From Tabrizicola flagellatus (GTDB lineage Bacteria; Pseudomonadota; Alphaproteobacteria; Rhodobacterales; Rhodobacteraceae), in contig NZ_VMDU01000005.1 in NCBI RefSeq assembly GCF_008271465.1, forward strand, positions 124,001-188,000: a stretch of DNA of 64,000 bases, written 5' to 3'. This document shows positions 4,091-10,948 of this stretch, one piece after another. Positions within the stretch are counted from its first letter, which is position 1, and every line of letters starts with the position of its first letter. Below the pieces are notes generated by a model that worked only from the letters and a program-made list of their open reading frames with translations, ran no database searches and had not been told where the DNA came from. A program made the translations under genes and the position numbers.

Positions 4091-4936
4091 ATGTCCACGC
4101 TCCTCTCCCTTGGCCACGGCTATTCCGCCCGCGCCCTTGCCCGCCGCCTGATCCCGCAGGGCTGGCGCGTCATCGGCACCACCCGCAATCCCGCCAAGGC
4201 CGAGGCGCTGCGCGCCGAAGGGGTCGAGCCCCTGCTCTGGCCCGGCGACCTCGGCCCCGCGCTGGCCAAGGCGACGCATATCCTTTGCTCGGCCGCCCCG
4301 GATGCCCAGGGCGACCCCTTCCTGCGCGCGGCACCACAGATTGCCCAGTCCAAGGCGGTCTGGGTCGGCTACCTGTCCACCACCGGGGTCTATGGCGACC
4401 ATGCGGGCGGCTGGGTGGACGAGACGACGCCACTCACCCCCCAGTCCGACCGGGGCCGGCAGCGCGTGGTGGCCGAACGGCAATGGCTGGAGACGGGCCT
4501 GCCGGTCCACATCTTCCGCCTTGCCGGCATCTACGGCCCCGGCCGCGGGCCGTTCGAGAAGGTCCGCGACGGCACCGCGCGGCGGATCATCAAGCCGGGG
4601 CAGGTCTTCGGCCGCATACATGTCGATGACATCGCCCAGGTGCTGGAAGCCTCGATCCGCCGTCCGAACCCGGGCGCGGCCTACAATGTCTGCGACGACA
4701 ATCCCTGTCCGCCGCAGGACGTGATCGCCTACGCAGCACGGCTTCTGGGCCTGCCCGAACCGCCCGCCGTGCCCTTCGAGGAGGTTGCCCCGACGATGAC
4801 CCCGATGGCGCTCGGCTTCTACAGCGAATCGAAGCGGGTGCGGAACGACCGGATCAAGGAAGAGCTGGGCGTGCGGCTGCTCTACCCCGACTACCCCGAA
4901 GGCCTCGCTGCGCTTCTGGCCGAAGAGGGCGGCTGA
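4091..4936 (+). CDS. NAD(P)-dependent epimerase/dehydratase-like (extended/atypical SDR, YeeZ-like)
   Basis: The 281-residue Rossmann-fold protein begins MSTLLSLGHGYSARALARRL, where the dinucleotide-binding glycines sit in GHGYSAR. Other SDR landmarks are YLSTTGVYGDHAGGWVDE (Ser/Thr before the usual YxxxK region), IFRLAGIYGPGR and GRIHVDDIAQVLEASI. These match the YeeZ-like group of NAD-binding proteins related to sugar-nucleotide epimerases, whose reaction is not established. The stop lies only 4 bp from the stop of the convergent ROK regulator. Confidence 0.75.
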   Translation: MSTLLSLGHGYSARALARRLIPQGWRVIGTTRNPAKAEALRAEGVEPLLWPGDLGPALAKATHILCSAAPDAQGDPFLRAAPQIAQSKAVWVGYLSTTGVYGDHAGGWVDETTPLTPQSDRGRQRVVAERQWLETGLPVHIFRLAGIYGPGRGPFEKVRDGTARRIIKPGQVFGRIHVDDIAQVLEASIRRPNPGAAYNVCDDNPCPPQDVIAYAARLLGLPEPPAVPFEEVAPTMTPMALGFYSESKRVRNDRIKEELGVRLLYPDYPEGLAALLAEEGG

Positions 4937-4940
4937 CGAC

Positions 4941-6221
4941 CTATTCCGCCGCCAGATCGCGCGACTGGTTGGCCAGGATCGCCTCGGTCACTGCCGACAG
5001 CGCCAGCGCCGCTGCGCCATGCGCCCAAAGGAGGTCGCCCCAAGCATGGATCTCGATCGGCGGGCGCGGGCGGCCGGTGTTGATCGCCAGGTTGTCCATC
5101 TCGGCCAGGGTCTCGGCGGCATAGAGATAGTCATAGCGCATCCGCTCGCCCGACAGGATGATCAACGCCGGGTCGAAGAGGTTGACCACGTTCGACAGCC
5201 CGACCGCCAGATAGCGCCCCGCGCGGCGGAAGATCGACTTCGCCGTGGCATTGCCGGCCTTGGCATGGTCGTAGAGGCTTTCCAAGAGCACGTTGATCGG
5301 CTGGCTCTCCTTGTGGCCCCAGTTCAGCGCCGTCGTCGCCTCGCGCGCCAGGGCATAGTCGGCGACATAGGCCTCCAGACAGCCGCGCTGGCCGCAGCGG
5401 CACAGGGCGCCGTCGAGATGCACCTTGGTATGGCCCAGCTCCATCCCCAGCCGCTGCGCGCCGCGATAGATCCGGTGGTTCATCACGAAGCCCATGCCGA
5501 CCCCGTGCTCGATGGTGACCACCGCGAAATCCGACAGGCTGCGCCCGGCGCCGAACCACAGCTCGGCCAGGGCCACCAGGTTCGCGTCGTTGTCCACCTG
5601 CACCGGGATCCCCAGCCGCGCGCTCGCTGCCTGGGCAACCGGCACCGCGCGTTCGACCAGAACCGAGGACCACAGCGCCACCCCGTCGGCACAATCGACA
5701 AAACCCGGGATTCCGATTCCGACACCCGAAAGTTCGGACCGCGAGACCTTCGCCTTGGCACAGACCCGGTCCAGCAGCGCCTCGATCGTGTCCAGAAGCT
5801 CGCCCAGCTGCATCGGGCCGGGCCGGCGCGGGATCGCCTCGTCGGCGATCAGCTTGCCGGCGAAATCGACGACGACGGCGGTATGCTCGCGGTCCGACAG
5901 CTTCATCCCCGCGACCAGATGCGCGCCTGCCTTGACCCCCAGAAAGACGGCAGGCCGCCCGCGCCCGGCCTCGCCGCCGCGCGGCACCGCGACCTCCTCG
6001 ATCAGGCCCGCCTCGATCAGTTCCGACGAGATCGTGGTCACGCTGGCCGGGCTCACGCCCAGGTCCTTGGCCAGCTGCACCCGCGGAATCAGACCCGCGG
6101 CGCGCACCAACTCGAAGACCTGCTGGCGCAGCGGGCGCTGGCTTTCGGTCAGGGGCGGGATCAGGGGACCCACGCCCTTGCGCGGCTCTGTCGCGGCGGC
6201 ATGCGTCGCCTTGGCCAACAT
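4941..6221 (-). CDS. xylR: ROK family transcriptional repressor (XylR/NagC type) of the xylose locus
   Basis: The protein has 426 residues. An N-terminal winged helix-turn-helix (about 25-80: VFELVRAAGLIPRVQLAKDL then VSPASVTTISSELIEAG) is followed by a ROK sugar-sensing domain with the zinc-binding signature CRCGQRGCLEAY preceded by LGMELGHTKVH. Repressors of this family (XylR, NagC, Mlc) release DNA when they bind sugar. The ATG at 6221 follows GGGAGG; the frame opens further upstream but without homology. It is divergent from the xylF-like gene, and the 215-bp intergenic region contains the operator at 6339-6355. A role as xylose repressor is inferred from this location. Confidence 0.85.
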   Translation of the reverse strand: MLAKATHAAATEPRKGVGPLIPPLTESQRPLRQQVFELVRAAGLIPRVQLAKDLGVSPASVTTISSELIEAGLIEEVAVPRGGEAGRGRPAVFLGVKAGAHLVAGMKLSDREHTAVVVDFAGKLIADEAIPRRPGPMQLGELLDTIEALLDRVCAKAKVSRSELSGVGIGIPGFVDCADGVALWSSVLVERAVPVAQAASARLGIPVQVDNDANLVALAELWFGAGRSLSDFAVVTIEHGVGMGFVMNHRIYRGAQRLGMELGHTKVHLDGALCRCGQRGCLEAYVADYALAREATTALNWGHKESQPINVLLESLYDHAKAGNATAKSIFRRAGRYLAVGLSNVVNLFDPALIILSGERMRYDYLYAAETLAEMDNLAINTGRPRPPIEIHAWGDLLWAHGAAALALSAVTEAILANQSRDLAAE

Positions 6222-6338
6222 TCCTTCGCCTCCCGAAGCAAAAGCCGCCGATTCTGCTGCGCATCGAGGCAGGCTTGCCGCAGAATGGCCGGACTTCCAC
6301 CATTTCCGCCCTGCCGCAAGCTTTGACCAGCAGAATAA

Positions 6339-6355
6339 TTTTGACAACTGAAATT
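6339..6355 (+). promoter_or_regulatory. Putative ROK/XylR operator 1, overlapping a TTGACA -35 element
   Basis: TTTTGACAACTGAAATT lies 80 bp before the first xylF-like gene and recurs identically (17/17) at 7513-7529 before the second. It includes a perfect TTGACA hexamer, so a bound repressor would block RNA polymerase. The flanks give short inverted arms (AATTT/AAATT) in this copy. The rest of the 6222-6435 interval shows no gene. Confidence 0.65.
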
Positions 6356-6435
6356 GATATGCGAGTTTGGCCTTGGCCTTTGCTCAACCTTTAGGGCAAT
6401 GGGTCTGCAGAGCGTGCAATCTTGGGGAGGTATTG

Positions 6436-7461
6436 ATGCGCAAACTGTTGTGGGTTGCAGCCCTTGCCGTGATGGCCCTGACTTCGGTCGCCCTCGCCGA
6501 GGGCAAGAAGATCGGGGTGGCCTGGGGCGATCTGTCCCAGCCGCGCTGGCGCTGGGACGTGACCGCGATGCGCTCGGTCATCGAACGCAGCGGCAACACG
6601 TACATCCCGGTCGATGCCGGCGGATCGGCGGCCAAGCAGTTGCAGGACATCGAGAAGATGATCGCGGACGGCGTCGATGCCCTTGTGATCCAGCCCGTGG
6701 ACAAGGACGAGATCATGAGCGGCGTGGAACGTGCCGCGGCGGCCGGCATACCGATGATCGCCTATGACCGCCTGATCGAGCACGACAAGGTCTTCTACAT
6801 CACCTTCGACAACGTGGGCGTCGGGCGGATCATCGCCGCGATCGTCAAGCAGGCGGCCCCCACGGGCAATTATGTGATCATCAAGGGCGACCCCGGCGAT
6901 GCCAACACCGGCTTCCTGCGGCAGGGCATGGAAGAGGTGATCGGCGCGGCCGTTGCCAGCGGGCAGATCAGGATCGTCGGCGAGGCGAATGCCGACGGCT
7001 GGCGGCCCGAGAACGCCAAGGCGATCATGGAAAAGGTCCTGGCCGAGACCGGCAATCAGGTCGATGCCGTGCTGGCGCAGAACGACGGCATGGCCGGCGG
7101 CGCGATCGAGGCGCTGACGGCGGCGGGCCTCACGGTTCCGATCGGTGGCCAGGACTGTGACCCGGCGGCGCTGAACCGGGTTGCCATGGGCACGCAGACG
7201 GTGTCGGTCTGGAAGAACAACTTCGACCTTGCCAAGCAGGCCGGCCGCATCGCCGTCCAGCTGGCAGAAGGCACGCCGATGAACCTGATTCCCGACGCGC
7301 GGCAGTTCTCGGGGGGCGAAAGGGGCGTTCCGGTCTGGTCCATCATGCTGAACCCGACCCCGATCACGGCCGAGACGCTCGACGTCGTCATCGACGCGGA
7401 TCACGTCACCAAGGCGGATGTCTGCAAGAACGCCCTGCCCACGGTCGCCGCCTGCCGCTGA
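6436..7461 (+). CDS. xylF: Sugar (xylose-type) ABC transporter periplasmic substrate-binding protein, copy 1
   Basis: This 341-residue protein has an N-terminal signal peptide (about 1-21, ending VALA before EGKK) and a periplasmic-binding-protein type 1 fold: KKIGVAWGDLSQPRWRWD, ADGVDALVIQPVDKDEI, GIPMIAYDRLIEHDK, DAVLAQNDGMAGGAIEAL and GGQDCDPAALNRVAMGTQ are the usual ligand-cleft segments of XylF-like proteins. GGGGAGG precedes the ATG. It should bind D-xylose or a related sugar for the permease/ATPase downstream. It is followed by a strong terminator and then by a close paralogue, so it has its own transcript. Confidence 0.9.
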   Translation: MRKLLWVAALAVMALTSVALAEGKKIGVAWGDLSQPRWRWDVTAMRSVIERSGNTYIPVDAGGSAAKQLQDIEKMIADGVDALVIQPVDKDEIMSGVERAAAAGIPMIAYDRLIEHDKVFYITFDNVGVGRIIAAIVKQAAPTGNYVIIKGDPGDANTGFLRQGMEEVIGAAVASGQIRIVGEANADGWRPENAKAIMEKVLAETGNQVDAVLAQNDGMAGGAIEALTAAGLTVPIGGQDCDPAALNRVAMGTQTVSVWKNNFDLAKQAGRIAVQLAEGTPMNLIPDARQFSGGERGVPVWSIMLNPTPITAETLDVVIDADHVTKADVCKNALPTVAACR

Positions 7462-7482
7462 GCCTTGGGGGATACGTCCAGT

Positions 7483-7516
7483 GCCGGCCCCGTCGCGGGC
7501 CGGCGTTTTATTTTTT
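7483..7516 (+). terminator. Rho-independent terminator after first xylF-like gene
   Basis: GCCGGCCC (7483-7490) pairs with GGGCCGGC (7497-7504) around a 6-nt loop, followed by a T-rich run GTTTTATTTTTT. The run overlaps the start of the second operator-like sequence at 7513. Confidence 0.85.
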
Positions 7517-7529
7517 GACAACTGAAATT
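7513..7529 (+). promoter_or_regulatory. Putative ROK/XylR operator 2, overlapping a TTGACA -35 element
   Basis: An exact 17-bp copy of the sequence at 6339-6355, including TTGACA, lies 77 bp before the second xylF-like gene. It probably lets the same repressor control the second transcription unit. Its 5' end is shared with the T-run of the preceding terminator. Confidence 0.65.
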
Positions 7530-7606
7530 ATTGGCGGCATCTTCCGCCCTGTTCCGGCGAATCTGCCGGACCGGCCCTTAGAGGCCGATCCATAGGGAGG
7601 ATACAT

Positions 7607-8632
7607 ATGCGTACCGCAATTCTCGCCGCCGTTCTGGCGGTGACCGGTTTCTCGTCGGCAGCTCTCGCCGAAGGCAAGAAGATCGGTGTTTCCTGGGCAC
7701 AGTTCCAGGAAGAGCGCTGGAAGATCGACGAAGCCGCGATGAAGGCCGCGATCGAAGCCGCCGGCAACGAGTATGTCTCGGCCGACGCCCAGTCCTCGGC
7801 CGAAAAGCAGCTGTCGGACATCGACGCGCTGATCGCGCAGGGCGTGGATGCTCTGGTCATCAACGCCTGGGACAAGGACGCCATCGGGCCGGCCATCGAG
7901 AAGGCCGCGGCAGAAGGGATCCCGGTCGTCGGCTATGACCGCCTGATCGAGGACAACCGCACCTTCTACCTGACCTTCGACAACGTCGGCGTCGGCCGCA
8001 TCATCGCGGAAGAGGTGTTCAAGCTGGTGCCGAAGGGGAACTATGCCATCATCAAGGGCGACCCGGGCGACCCGAACGTCGGCTTCCTGCGCCAGGGCAT
8101 GGAAGAGGTCATCGGCGCGGCCGTTGCCTCGGGCGACATCAAGATCGTCGGCGAAGCGAACTCGGACGGCTGGAAGCCGGAGAACGCCCAGAAGAACATG
8201 GAGCAGATCCTGACCGCCAACAACAACGCCATCGACGCCGTGCTGGCGCAGAACGACGGCATGGCGGGCGGTGTGGCGGCTGCGCTGGCCGCGCAAGGCC
8301 TGAACGTTCCGCTGGGTGGCCAGGACGGCGACCTCGCCGCGATCAACCGCGTAGCGCGCGGCACCCAGACCGTCTCGGTCTGGAAGGACGCCCGCCAGCT
8401 GGGCAAGGCCGCCGGCGAGATCGCCTCGGCGCTGGCCGACGGCGCGGCGCTGGACGCTATCCCGGGCGCGACCAAGTTCTCGGGCGGCGAGAAGGGCGTC
8501 GAGATGAACGCCATTCTGCTGACCCCGACCCCGATCACCAAGGAGACCATCGGTCTGGCGATCGAGGCTGGCCACATCACCAAGGAACAGGCCTGCGAAG
8601 GCGCGATGCCCGACGTGGCTGCCTGCCAGTAA
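7607..8632 (+). CDS. xylF: Sugar (xylose-type) ABC transporter periplasmic substrate-binding protein, copy 2
   Basis: It also has 341 residues, with a signal peptide (about 1-21, ending AALA) and the same fold as the protein encoded just upstream; long segments such as YDRLIE, TFDNVGVGRIIA and GFLRQGMEEVIGAAVASG are identical. Cleft residues differ: SWAQFQEERWKID replaces AWGDLSQPRWRWD and INAWDKDAIGP replaces IQPVDKDEIMS, so the ligands may differ. The ribosome site GGGAGG precedes ATG. It is the copy nearest the permease genes and is followed by a stem-loop typical of highly expressed binding-protein genes. Confidence 0.9.
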   Translation: MRTAILAAVLAVTGFSSAALAEGKKIGVSWAQFQEERWKIDEAAMKAAIEAAGNEYVSADAQSSAEKQLSDIDALIAQGVDALVINAWDKDAIGPAIEKAAAEGIPVVGYDRLIEDNRTFYLTFDNVGVGRIIAEEVFKLVPKGNYAIIKGDPGDPNVGFLRQGMEEVIGAAVASGDIKIVGEANSDGWKPENAQKNMEQILTANNNAIDAVLAQNDGMAGGVAAALAAQGLNVPLGGQDGDLAAINRVARGTQTVSVWKDARQLGKAAGEIASALADGAALDAIPGATKFSGGEKGVEMNAILLTPTPITKETIGLAIEAGHITKEQACEGAMPDVAACQ

Positions 8633-8647
8633 TCTGGCCTGATCTCC

Positions 8648-8672
8648 GGCGCCGTCCCGAGGGGGCGGCGCC
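8648..8672 (+). terminator. Stem-loop between binding protein and permease genes (attenuator/mRNA stabiliser)
   Basis: GGCGCCG (8648-8654) pairs with CGGCGCC (8666-8672) around an 11-nt loop, with no real T-run after it. Such hairpins after binding-protein genes usually protect the upstream mRNA 3' end and lower expression of the membrane components. Confidence 0.55.
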
Positions 8673-8778
8673 GACCCCTTTCTCCTGGCTGGTCCGTCGC
8701 TCCGTCCTCGGAGCCCGATGACGCGCATCGCGGCGCACGGCACCGGCACAGCCCCATCCCCTCTCAGGCTGGACGGAC

Positions 8779-10170
8779 ATGACCGACACACCTCATTCCC
8801 CTGCATCCCATGCGCCGAACGAGGGCGGATTCACCCGCTTCCTGCGCGCCACGGAAATCGACCCGCGCCTGCTGGGCATGGTCGGCGCGCTTCTGCTGAT
8901 CTGGCTGGCCTTCGAGGCCTATTCGACCTTCGTCCTCGGCCGCCCCTCGATGCTTCTGGGTGCCAGCCAGGCCGAGGCGAACGGTTTCCTGACGCCGCGC
9001 AACCTGTGGAACCTGTCGGTCCAGACCGCCTATATCGGGATCATGGCCTGCGGCATGGTGCTGGTCATCATCACCCGCAACATCGACCTGTCGGTGGGCT
9101 CGATCATGGGTATGGTGGGCATGTACATGGGCCTTCTGCAGGTGGAATACCTGACGCCGGCGCTGGGCCTCGGCCATCCGTCGATCTGGATCATCACCGT
9201 CCTCTTCGGCATCGCCATGGGCGCGCTGATCGGCGCCTTCCAGGGCACGCTGATCGCCTTCCTCGGTATCCCGTCCTTCATCGTCACCCTGGGCGGCCTT
9301 CTGGTCTGGCGCGGCGCGGCCTTCCTCGTCGCCGGCGGCAAGACCATCGCGCCGCTCGACGACCGCTTCTCGCTGATCGGTGGCGGCTCCTTCGGGGCGC
9401 TGGGCAAGACCGGCAGCTGGATCTTTGCCGCCATCGCCTGCGTCTTCGTCGTCTGGGCCTTCCTGAACGGCCGCCGGTCGCGCCAGCGCCACGGCTTCGC
9501 CCTGCGCCCGGTCTGGGCCGAGACCTTCGTGATCGGCCTCGTTTGCGCGGTGATCCTTGGCGCGACGGCCATCGTGAATTCCTACATCTGGCCGACCGGC
9601 AACATCCAGAAATACTACCAGGCCCTGGGCCAGGAGATTCCGGCCTGCGCCGAACGGGGCGGCAACATCTACACCGATGTCTGCGCCAGCTTCGGCCATG
9701 GCTTCGCCTATCCGGTGCTGATCATGATCGCCGTGGCCTTCGCCATGACCATCCTGATGACCCGCACCCGCTTTGGCCGTTATGTCTTTGCCATCGGCGG
9801 CAACCCCGAGGCGGCGTCCCTGTCGGGCATCAACACCCGGGCGATGATCGTGAAGATCTTCACGCTCATGGGGGCGCTGGCCGGCATCGCCGCCGTGATC
9901 GGCGCCGCGCGCCAGAACAGCGCCACCAACGCCATGGGCAACCTCGACGAGCTTTACGTCATCGCCGCGGCCGTGGTCGGCGGCACCTCGCTGGCGGGCG
10001 GCGTCGGGACGATCTACGGTGCGATCATCGGCGCGCTGATCCTGACCAGCCTGCAGACCGGCATGGTGCTGATCGGCTTCGGCGACGGATCCTACCAGCG
10101 CATCGTGATCGGCATCGCGCTCGTCCTCGCCGTGTATCTCGACATCGTTTACCGCAAACGCATCAAGTGA
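8779..10170 (+). CDS. xylH: Xylose-type ABC transporter permease
   Basis: This 463-residue inner-membrane protein of the BPD_transp_2 (XylH/RbsC) family has about ten hydrophobic segments. The landmarks [33 protein letters not shown] and the EAA-like loop [12 protein letters not shown] are present. It is longer than E. coli XylH (about 393) because of a stretch around residues 220-320 that includes a hydrophobic segment and the loop [17 protein letters not shown]. It forms the channel for sugar delivered by the upstream binding proteins and is followed 13 bp later by its ATPase gene. Confidence 0.9.
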
Positions 10171-10183
10171 AGGGGCCCCTAGC

Positions 10184-10948
10184 ATGGTAGACAGAACCGG
10201 AACCCCGCTTGTCGAACTGCGCGACATCTCGATCGCCTTCGGCGGGATCAAGGCCGTGGATCACGTCACGATCGACCTTTACCCCGGCGAGGTCGTGGGC
10301 CTTCTGGGCCACAACGGCGCGGGCAAGTCCACGCTGATCAAGTGCCTCTCGGGCGCCTACAAGAAGGACTCAGGCCAGATCTTCATCAACGGCAAGGAGG
10401 TGGAGATCAACGACCCCCGCGATGCCCGCGCGCTGAACATCGAGACGATCTACCAGACCCTTGCGCTCGCCGACAACCTGGACGCCGCCTCGAACCTCTT
10501 CCTCGGGCGCGAGCTGGTGAACGCCTTCGGCTTCGTGGACGAATCGAAGATGGAGGCCGAGACGCGCAAGATCATGGGCCGGCTGAACCCGAACTTCCGC
10601 AAGTTCAACGTCCCGGTCAGCGCCCTGTCGGGCGGTCAGCGCCAGTCGGTCGCCATCGCCCGGGCGGTCTATTTCAACGCCAGGATCCTGATCATGGACG
10701 AACCGACCGCCGCTCTGGGCCCGCACGAGACCCAGATGGTCGCCGAACTGATCCAGGAACTGAAGGCGCAGGGCCTCGGCATCTTCCTGATCGAGCATGA
10801 CATCCACAACGTGATGAAGCTCTGCGACCGCGCCAGCGTGATGAAGAACGGCCAGCTGGTCGGCACGGTGAACGTGAACGAGGTCACCGACGACGACATC
10901 CTGGGCATGATCATCCTGGGCAAGAAGCCCCAGCACCTGGCCGCGTGA
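10184..10948 (+). CDS. xylG: Sugar ABC transporter ATP-binding protein (single nucleotide-binding domain)
   Basis: The 254 residues contain one complete ABC cassette: Walker [10 protein letters not shown] (42-50), signature LSGGQRQ (148-154), Walker B ILIMDEPT (168-175) and switch His in LIEHDIH. E. coli XylG has two cassettes in about 510 residues; this shorter form resembles the FrcA-type ATPases of alphaproteobacteria and would act as a homodimer. Its stop overlaps the xylB start (TGATG), so translation is probably coupled. Confidence 0.9.

Follow-up and report, generated by a model that had tools for sequence, protein, structure and literature searches.

Two genes for periplasmic binding proteins of the xylose type stand in tandem in Tabrizicola flagellatus, and the same 17-bp sequence precedes each of them. 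We asked what this sequence is, which protein would bind it, and how it fits between two neighboring genes. The window that we analyzed is a stretch of 64,000 nucleotides. Within it, a ROK gene on the minus strand (ATG at 6221) is followed by two xylF-like genes, an ABC permease, a single-domain ATPase, xylB, and xylA. The first binding protein gene, xylF1, lies at 6436..7461 and the second, xylF2, at 7607..8632, both on the plus strand. Their products are 61% identical; the top NCBIfam model for both was TIGR02634 (xylF), with 310.9 bits for XylF1 and 368.1 bits for XylF2, yet both fall under the curated cut-off of 389.55. The ATPase (10184-10948) has 254 amino acids against 500 in the XylG model, roughly half, and the transporter therefore has a single-domain ATPase.

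A search of the window found exact copies of TTTTGACAACTGAAATT at 6339-6355 and 7513-7529. The copies end 80 bp before the ATG of xylF1 (6436) and 77 bp before the ATG of xylF2 (7607), and both contain TTGACA, as an earlier note on this DNA had described when it placed an identical 17-mer about 80 bp ahead of both binding protein starts. The bases flanking the 17-mer differ between the copies on both sides. With up to three mismatches allowed, the window contained these two copies only, against a mean of 0.01 matches in shuffled sequences, and none of 100 shuffles had two or more. In the 3.6-Mb assembly, the same threshold also returned the same two sites only, although a reversed control pattern likewise gave two matches. 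A chance repeat was ruled out by the shuffles, the rarity in the genome, and the conservation of the alignment columns. A wide regulon is unsupported, given only two sites within three mismatches in the genome. The exact repeat and the column conservation in aligned sites define extended forms of 26 bp, at 6333..6358 for operator 1 and 7507..7532 for operator 2 (both plus strand).

The site was then compared across genomes. In a sample of 32 genomes of the genus, which includes the genome studied here, 31 have the site with at most two mismatches and 28 have it exactly; the sole genome without it is 59% complete. Using XylF2 as query, we retrieved 80 named loci, and in 59 of them a site with at most four mismatches is located 40-160 bp ahead of xylF, usually starting near -95. 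Carriers of the site include Fuscovulum blasticum and Tabrizicola aquatica. A set of 119 candidate sites was aligned; 98 were kept (no more than 9 mismatches in 26 positions), and 21 were dropped for exceeding this number. For the 77 sites accompanied by a ROK protein of more than 60% identity, mean pairwise identity over the 17 columns is 0.948, a value inflated by the choice of sites as best matches, compared to 0.329 in the upstream and 0.413 in the downstream flank. The picture is the same without averaging: the exact 17-mer is present in 14 of 18 copies ahead of first genes (F1), 15 of 17 ahead of second genes (F2), and 27 of 44 ahead of single xylF genes. The earlier note had suggested selection on the site, and the comparison across genomes bears this out, with a core kept amid diverged flanks. 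It had also let its reading depend on the presence of the 17-mer in orthologous loci; the 17-mer is conserved in these loci, and that reading survives. Judged from the aligned sequences, the 17-mer is a footprint, kept almost unchanged before the xylose-binding-protein genes of many relatives.

Two matches deserve separate mention. Genome G012 has a third match, on the 3.6-kb contig 161 (locus L115), which carries its own ROK and xylF genes; this set is possibly from a second strain. A site with two mismatches on contig 27 of genome G015 was set aside, its neighbors being, by eye, unrelated to xylose.

The F1 proteins form a single clade (n = 18, support 1.0; the node above has 0.608). Directly after the 17-mer, 17 of 18 F1 copies have G, whereas all 17 F2 copies have A. 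This stable difference beside a kept core implies that the two copies diverged and that the core stayed nearly constant.

The divergent gene (4941..6221, minus strand) encodes an XylR-like repressor of the ROK family with 426 amino acids. Its C-terminal ROK domain was recognized with 168.2 bits against a cut-off of 22.9 (PF00480), and its best matches among solved structures were Lmo0178, Mlc, and the ROK regulator 1z05. The alignments with Lmo0178 and Mlc begin at residues 32-34 and span the N-terminal winged helix-turn-helix, which is thus present, while the Pfam model HTH_24 scored just under its cut-off (21.4 versus 21.9). The translation also contains GHTKVHLDGALCRCGQRGCLE, a match to the zinc motif GH..CxCGxxGCxE, which we take to be a feature of ROK-family repressors. 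The NagC and Mlc profiles of NCBIfam matched residues 34/35 to 359/364 and missed their equivalog cut-offs (176.7 versus 650, and 168.2 versus 530, respectively). Across 59 locus sequences of more than 60% identity, some possibly from the same genome, mean identity to the ROK protein of the window is 0.88 in the helix-turn-helix (residues 30-75), 0.82 in the ROK domain, and 0.74 in the less conserved wing (76-92).

Presence of the site follows presence of this gene. A ROK match above 40% identity is present in 67 of the 80 named loci, and 58 of these 67 have a site with at most four mismatches, as does one of the 13 others, L079; a Fisher test on this association overstates independence because the loci are related. 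The other nine of the 67 have no site within four mismatches. In a family sample of 296 genomes, the ROK gene was found in 152 (E ≤ 1e-40) and a pattern match with at most two mismatches in 149, many of the latter being chance matches, since the reversed pattern, used as a control, has matches in many genomes too. By eye, and among the matches listed for this sample, all ten sites with zero mismatches are 118-172 bp from the aligned ROK start, and six of nine sites with one mismatch are 140-176 bp from it. The remaining three of these nine (in G319, G202, and G151) are away from ROK; the one in G319 is, by eye, inside an open reading frame whose neighbor resembles a DNA methyltransferase gene, and xylF is absent from the open reading frames listed there. 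Loci L079 and L075 have no ROK gene beside xylF, and the genes upstream resemble, by eye, a di-haem cytochrome peroxidase and a repeat protein; in L075, the best match before xylF has seven mismatches.

In three genomes (G015, G016, and G018; loci L112, L114, and L113, respectively) a rhizobial-type xylF and a distant xylH are located within an otherwise orthologous xyl locus. At 57.9-58.8% identity for xylF and 43.5-45.0% for xylH, these genes represent another type, whereas ROK is 85.9-87.1% identical. In G015 and G016, xylG and xylB are 90-92% identical; the G018 contig stops before both genes. In the phylogeny, the clade of these incoming xylF genes joins four rhizobial loci (L103, L107, L110, and L111) with a support of 0.987, and the best match ahead of xylF in these four has 7-8 mismatches. 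The exact 17-mer is retained in all three genomes. In G015 and G018 the two operators are both still there, separated by 169 and 242 bp that contain no xylF1. At 10.5 bp per turn, these spacings amount to 16.1 and 23.0 helical turns, nearly whole numbers, an observation on two cases only. We read these loci as sites that go with the regulator rather than with the genes that it would control. The tracking of ROK by the operator sites, with the resident transporter replaced and ROK and the exact operators kept, favors ROK as the binder. The earlier note's view that the divergent ROK protein binds the 17-mer is strengthened by the association with ROK orthologs and by the three natural gene replacements; the binding itself has the standing of a prediction, and the divergent repressor is the best-supported candidate.

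The consensus of the aligned sites, TTTTTATTTTGACAACTGAAATTATT, has a T-rich 5' end, an A-rich 3' end, and a short center, and its conservation continues past the hexamer, from the T-tract through AAATT. A layout with a T-rich 5' and an A-rich 3' end is reported for ROK sites (PMC4856308). We looked for a clear dyad in the aligned sites and found none: complementarity at the best centers was weak, 0.51 and 0.48, hardly above the rest. The predicted role of the 17-mer is that of the core in a 26-bp, T-rich/A-rich operator of the ROK type.

Several known systems are comparable. In Bacillus and Paenibacillus, XylR is likewise a ROK repressor whose gene points away from xylose genes, and one operator-promoter region with a bidirectional xylR/xylA promoter serves both sides (PMC9104551). 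Its site, according to the same text, has GTTT-N7-AAAC, whereas this motif is missing from both intergenic regions here (6222-6435 and 7462-7606); its target is xylA, whereas here there are two xylF genes and the host is, by its nearest loci, a rhodobacterial alphaproteobacterium. The sites of Escherichia coli Mlc and NagC, whose profiles match, are said to share the T-rich/A-rich layout (PMC4856308); however, the ROK protein scores far under their cut-offs, and there is only one local pair of sites. Listeria Lmo0178 (5f7p, 5f7q, and 5f7r) is the best match among solved structures, over residues 32-412 with the helix-turn-helix covered. It is said to regulate alpha-glucan decomposition (PMC9104551), and the likeness concerns the protein, the operator aside. 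For RokB of Streptomyces coelicolor, PMC4856308 describes two sites without a perfect inverted repeat and with A-rich ends, as here, although core sequence and regulon differ. Among the literature matches listed, with RegPrecise and most subscription papers outside the scope, we found no paper on the 17-mer operator or on a ROK xylose operator in Rhodobacteraceae. PMC5507952 states that its Supplementary Table S2 lists sugar regulons with their candidate sites, Rhodobacteraceae being among the organisms covered, and the motif may already be in print in that supplement.

The TTGACA in the site is likely the -35 box of the xylF promoter, in the arrangement TTGACA-N17-CAnnTT. The predicted xylF2 promoter (7515..7543, plus strand) consists of TTGACA at 7515-7520, 17 nt, and a conserved -10, CATCTT, at 7538-7543. 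Over the 17 second sites, the C, A, and final T of the -10 CAnnTT, 17 nt past TTGACA, are conserved at 1.00, 0.94, and 1.00. For xylF1, the TTGACA at 6341..6346 (plus strand) is followed, after a 16-nt spacer, by a weak -10, GAGTTT, at 6363-6368. A strict sigma-70 scan returned three promoter-like places, all of them elsewhere, with neither xylF promoter among them.

On the opposite strand beside the ROK gene, an overlapping TTGTCA is likely the -35 box of a divergent ROK promoter, predicted at 6319..6347 on the minus strand (TTGTCA 6347-6342, 17 nt, AAAGCT 6324-6319). Where the adjacent ROK protein exceeds 60% identity, the A2 and T6 of this divergent -10 are present at 48 of 61 sites; they are present at 0 of 17 second sites, which no ROK gene adjoins, and at 0 of a further 17 sites whose ROK protein is 40-60% identical. 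Because TTGTCA with the A2/T6 hexamer is found at ROK-adjacent and not at second sites, operator 1 probably holds two overlapping -35 boxes pointing apart. The bases of the 17-mer would thus probably also serve the divergent ROK promoter, which the earlier note overlooked.

Could the 17-mer be merely a strong promoter, a -35 box with flanks that was copied along with the gene and that no repressor binds? The perfect TTGACA and the 17-nt spacer to a conserved -10 agree with this; however, conservation reaches well past the hexamer, no other place in the genome is within three mismatches, and the presence of the site follows the ROK orthologs. We regard a promoter without a repressor as quite improbable. 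The identity of the copies might, instead, reflect mere duplication or gene conversion without selection. Both copies are exact, and the F1 proteins form one clade, as expected after a single duplication. Nevertheless, the proteins are only 61% identical, the flanks differ, the next base separates nearly all F1 from all F2 copies while the core is kept, and the site is also kept in single-copy loci, which leaves this explanation hardly credible.

A different regulator, either another ROK protein or an unlinked factor, could also bind the site. The genome has five places with a ROK domain, and L079 retains a site with three mismatches without a linked ROK gene, the ROK proteins of that genome being only 25-31% identical. 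Against this stand the association of the site with the divergent ROK gene and the three loci that keep ROK and operators while the transporter genes are of another type, and we give a different binder little credence. We consider it highly probable that the 17-mer is the operator core for the divergent ROK repressor, a functional analog of XylR, and that it overlies the -35 box of each xylF promoter; binding, inducer, direction of regulation, and promoter use are the parts of this reading that we infer.

Operator 2 also borders a terminator. A hairpin after xylF1 (7480..7507, plus strand) has the tail TTATTTTTTG, which runs into the second site, and operator 2 has the U-tract of this hairpin (7506-7516) for its left arm. 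The earlier note had described the second copy as fused to this terminator, and the arrangement proved general: of 17 tandem loci, 16 have a best stem that ends 0-5 nt ahead of the operator's A/T tract, and in the remaining one (L009) it ends 13 nt ahead. The 17 upstream regions folded with -19.5 to -36.3 kcal/mol. For the control, 61 ROK-adjacent sites, the mean was -12.4 with an sd of 4.2 and a lowest value of -23.5, a range that the weakest of the 17 overlap. By eye, the stems of the different tandem loci look unrelated in sequence. The T-tract is also present in single-xylF loci, where the upstream neighbor is the divergent ROK gene, and the terminator therefore appears to borrow the operator arm. 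We read the T-run as belonging first to the operator, a point that the earlier note had missed. The operator itself is of a known, ordinary kind; its one twist is the T-rich arm that doubles as the terminator tail of the preceding gene.

The proposed mechanism is as follows. In the absence of xylose, ROK bound to the operators would keep RNA polymerase off both xylF promoters, and its binding to operator 1 would mask the -35 box of the ROK gene as well. By analogy with known ROK XylR proteins, xylose would cause the repressor to leave. A tandem duplication would have copied xylF along with its promoter-operator, and the terminator between the copies would draw its U-tract from the T-rich left arm of operator 2. 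Because of this terminator, xylF2 and the genes after it would rely on their own repressed promoter. A further idea, which we consider rather unlikely, is that operator 2 is a three-way element, at once U-tract, arm for the repressor, and -35 box, and that its occupancy by ROK alters termination of the xylF1 transcript too; a repression loop with operator 1 might form as well. If this were true, one bound ROK would seal the upstream transcript and shut the downstream promoter.

Two further structures were seen near xylF2. A hairpin with a GAAUCU loop in its 5' leader (7553..7570, plus strand; GAAUCY across relatives) lies a few nucleotides past the predicted transcript start. The loop core is present in 60 of 98 aligned leaders and in 0 of 18 F1 leaders, and the hairpin has one genome match with at most three mismatches. 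In a set of 55 distinct leaders, both sides of the stem had changed in 20 cells, versus 5.6 in shuffles; however, 112 of the 500 shuffles reached the number of such pairs (3). A scan of 4900-9000 against Rfam returned nothing. The hairpin is possibly a 5' stabilizing stem. A GC-rich inverted repeat, noted by eye between xylF2 and xylH at about 8647-8674, might reduce how strongly the downstream genes are expressed compared with the binding protein.

With its tail taken from an operator, the terminator illustrates, on a small scale and in a form open to testing, how sequence can be compacted where genes stand in tandem. The loci in which a rhizobial-type transporter arrived and the resident operators were kept offer a clear example from nature of sites that go with their regulator. 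The analysis also provides a predicted operator motif and promoter and a likely regulator for the uptake of xylose in many Rhodobacteraceae.
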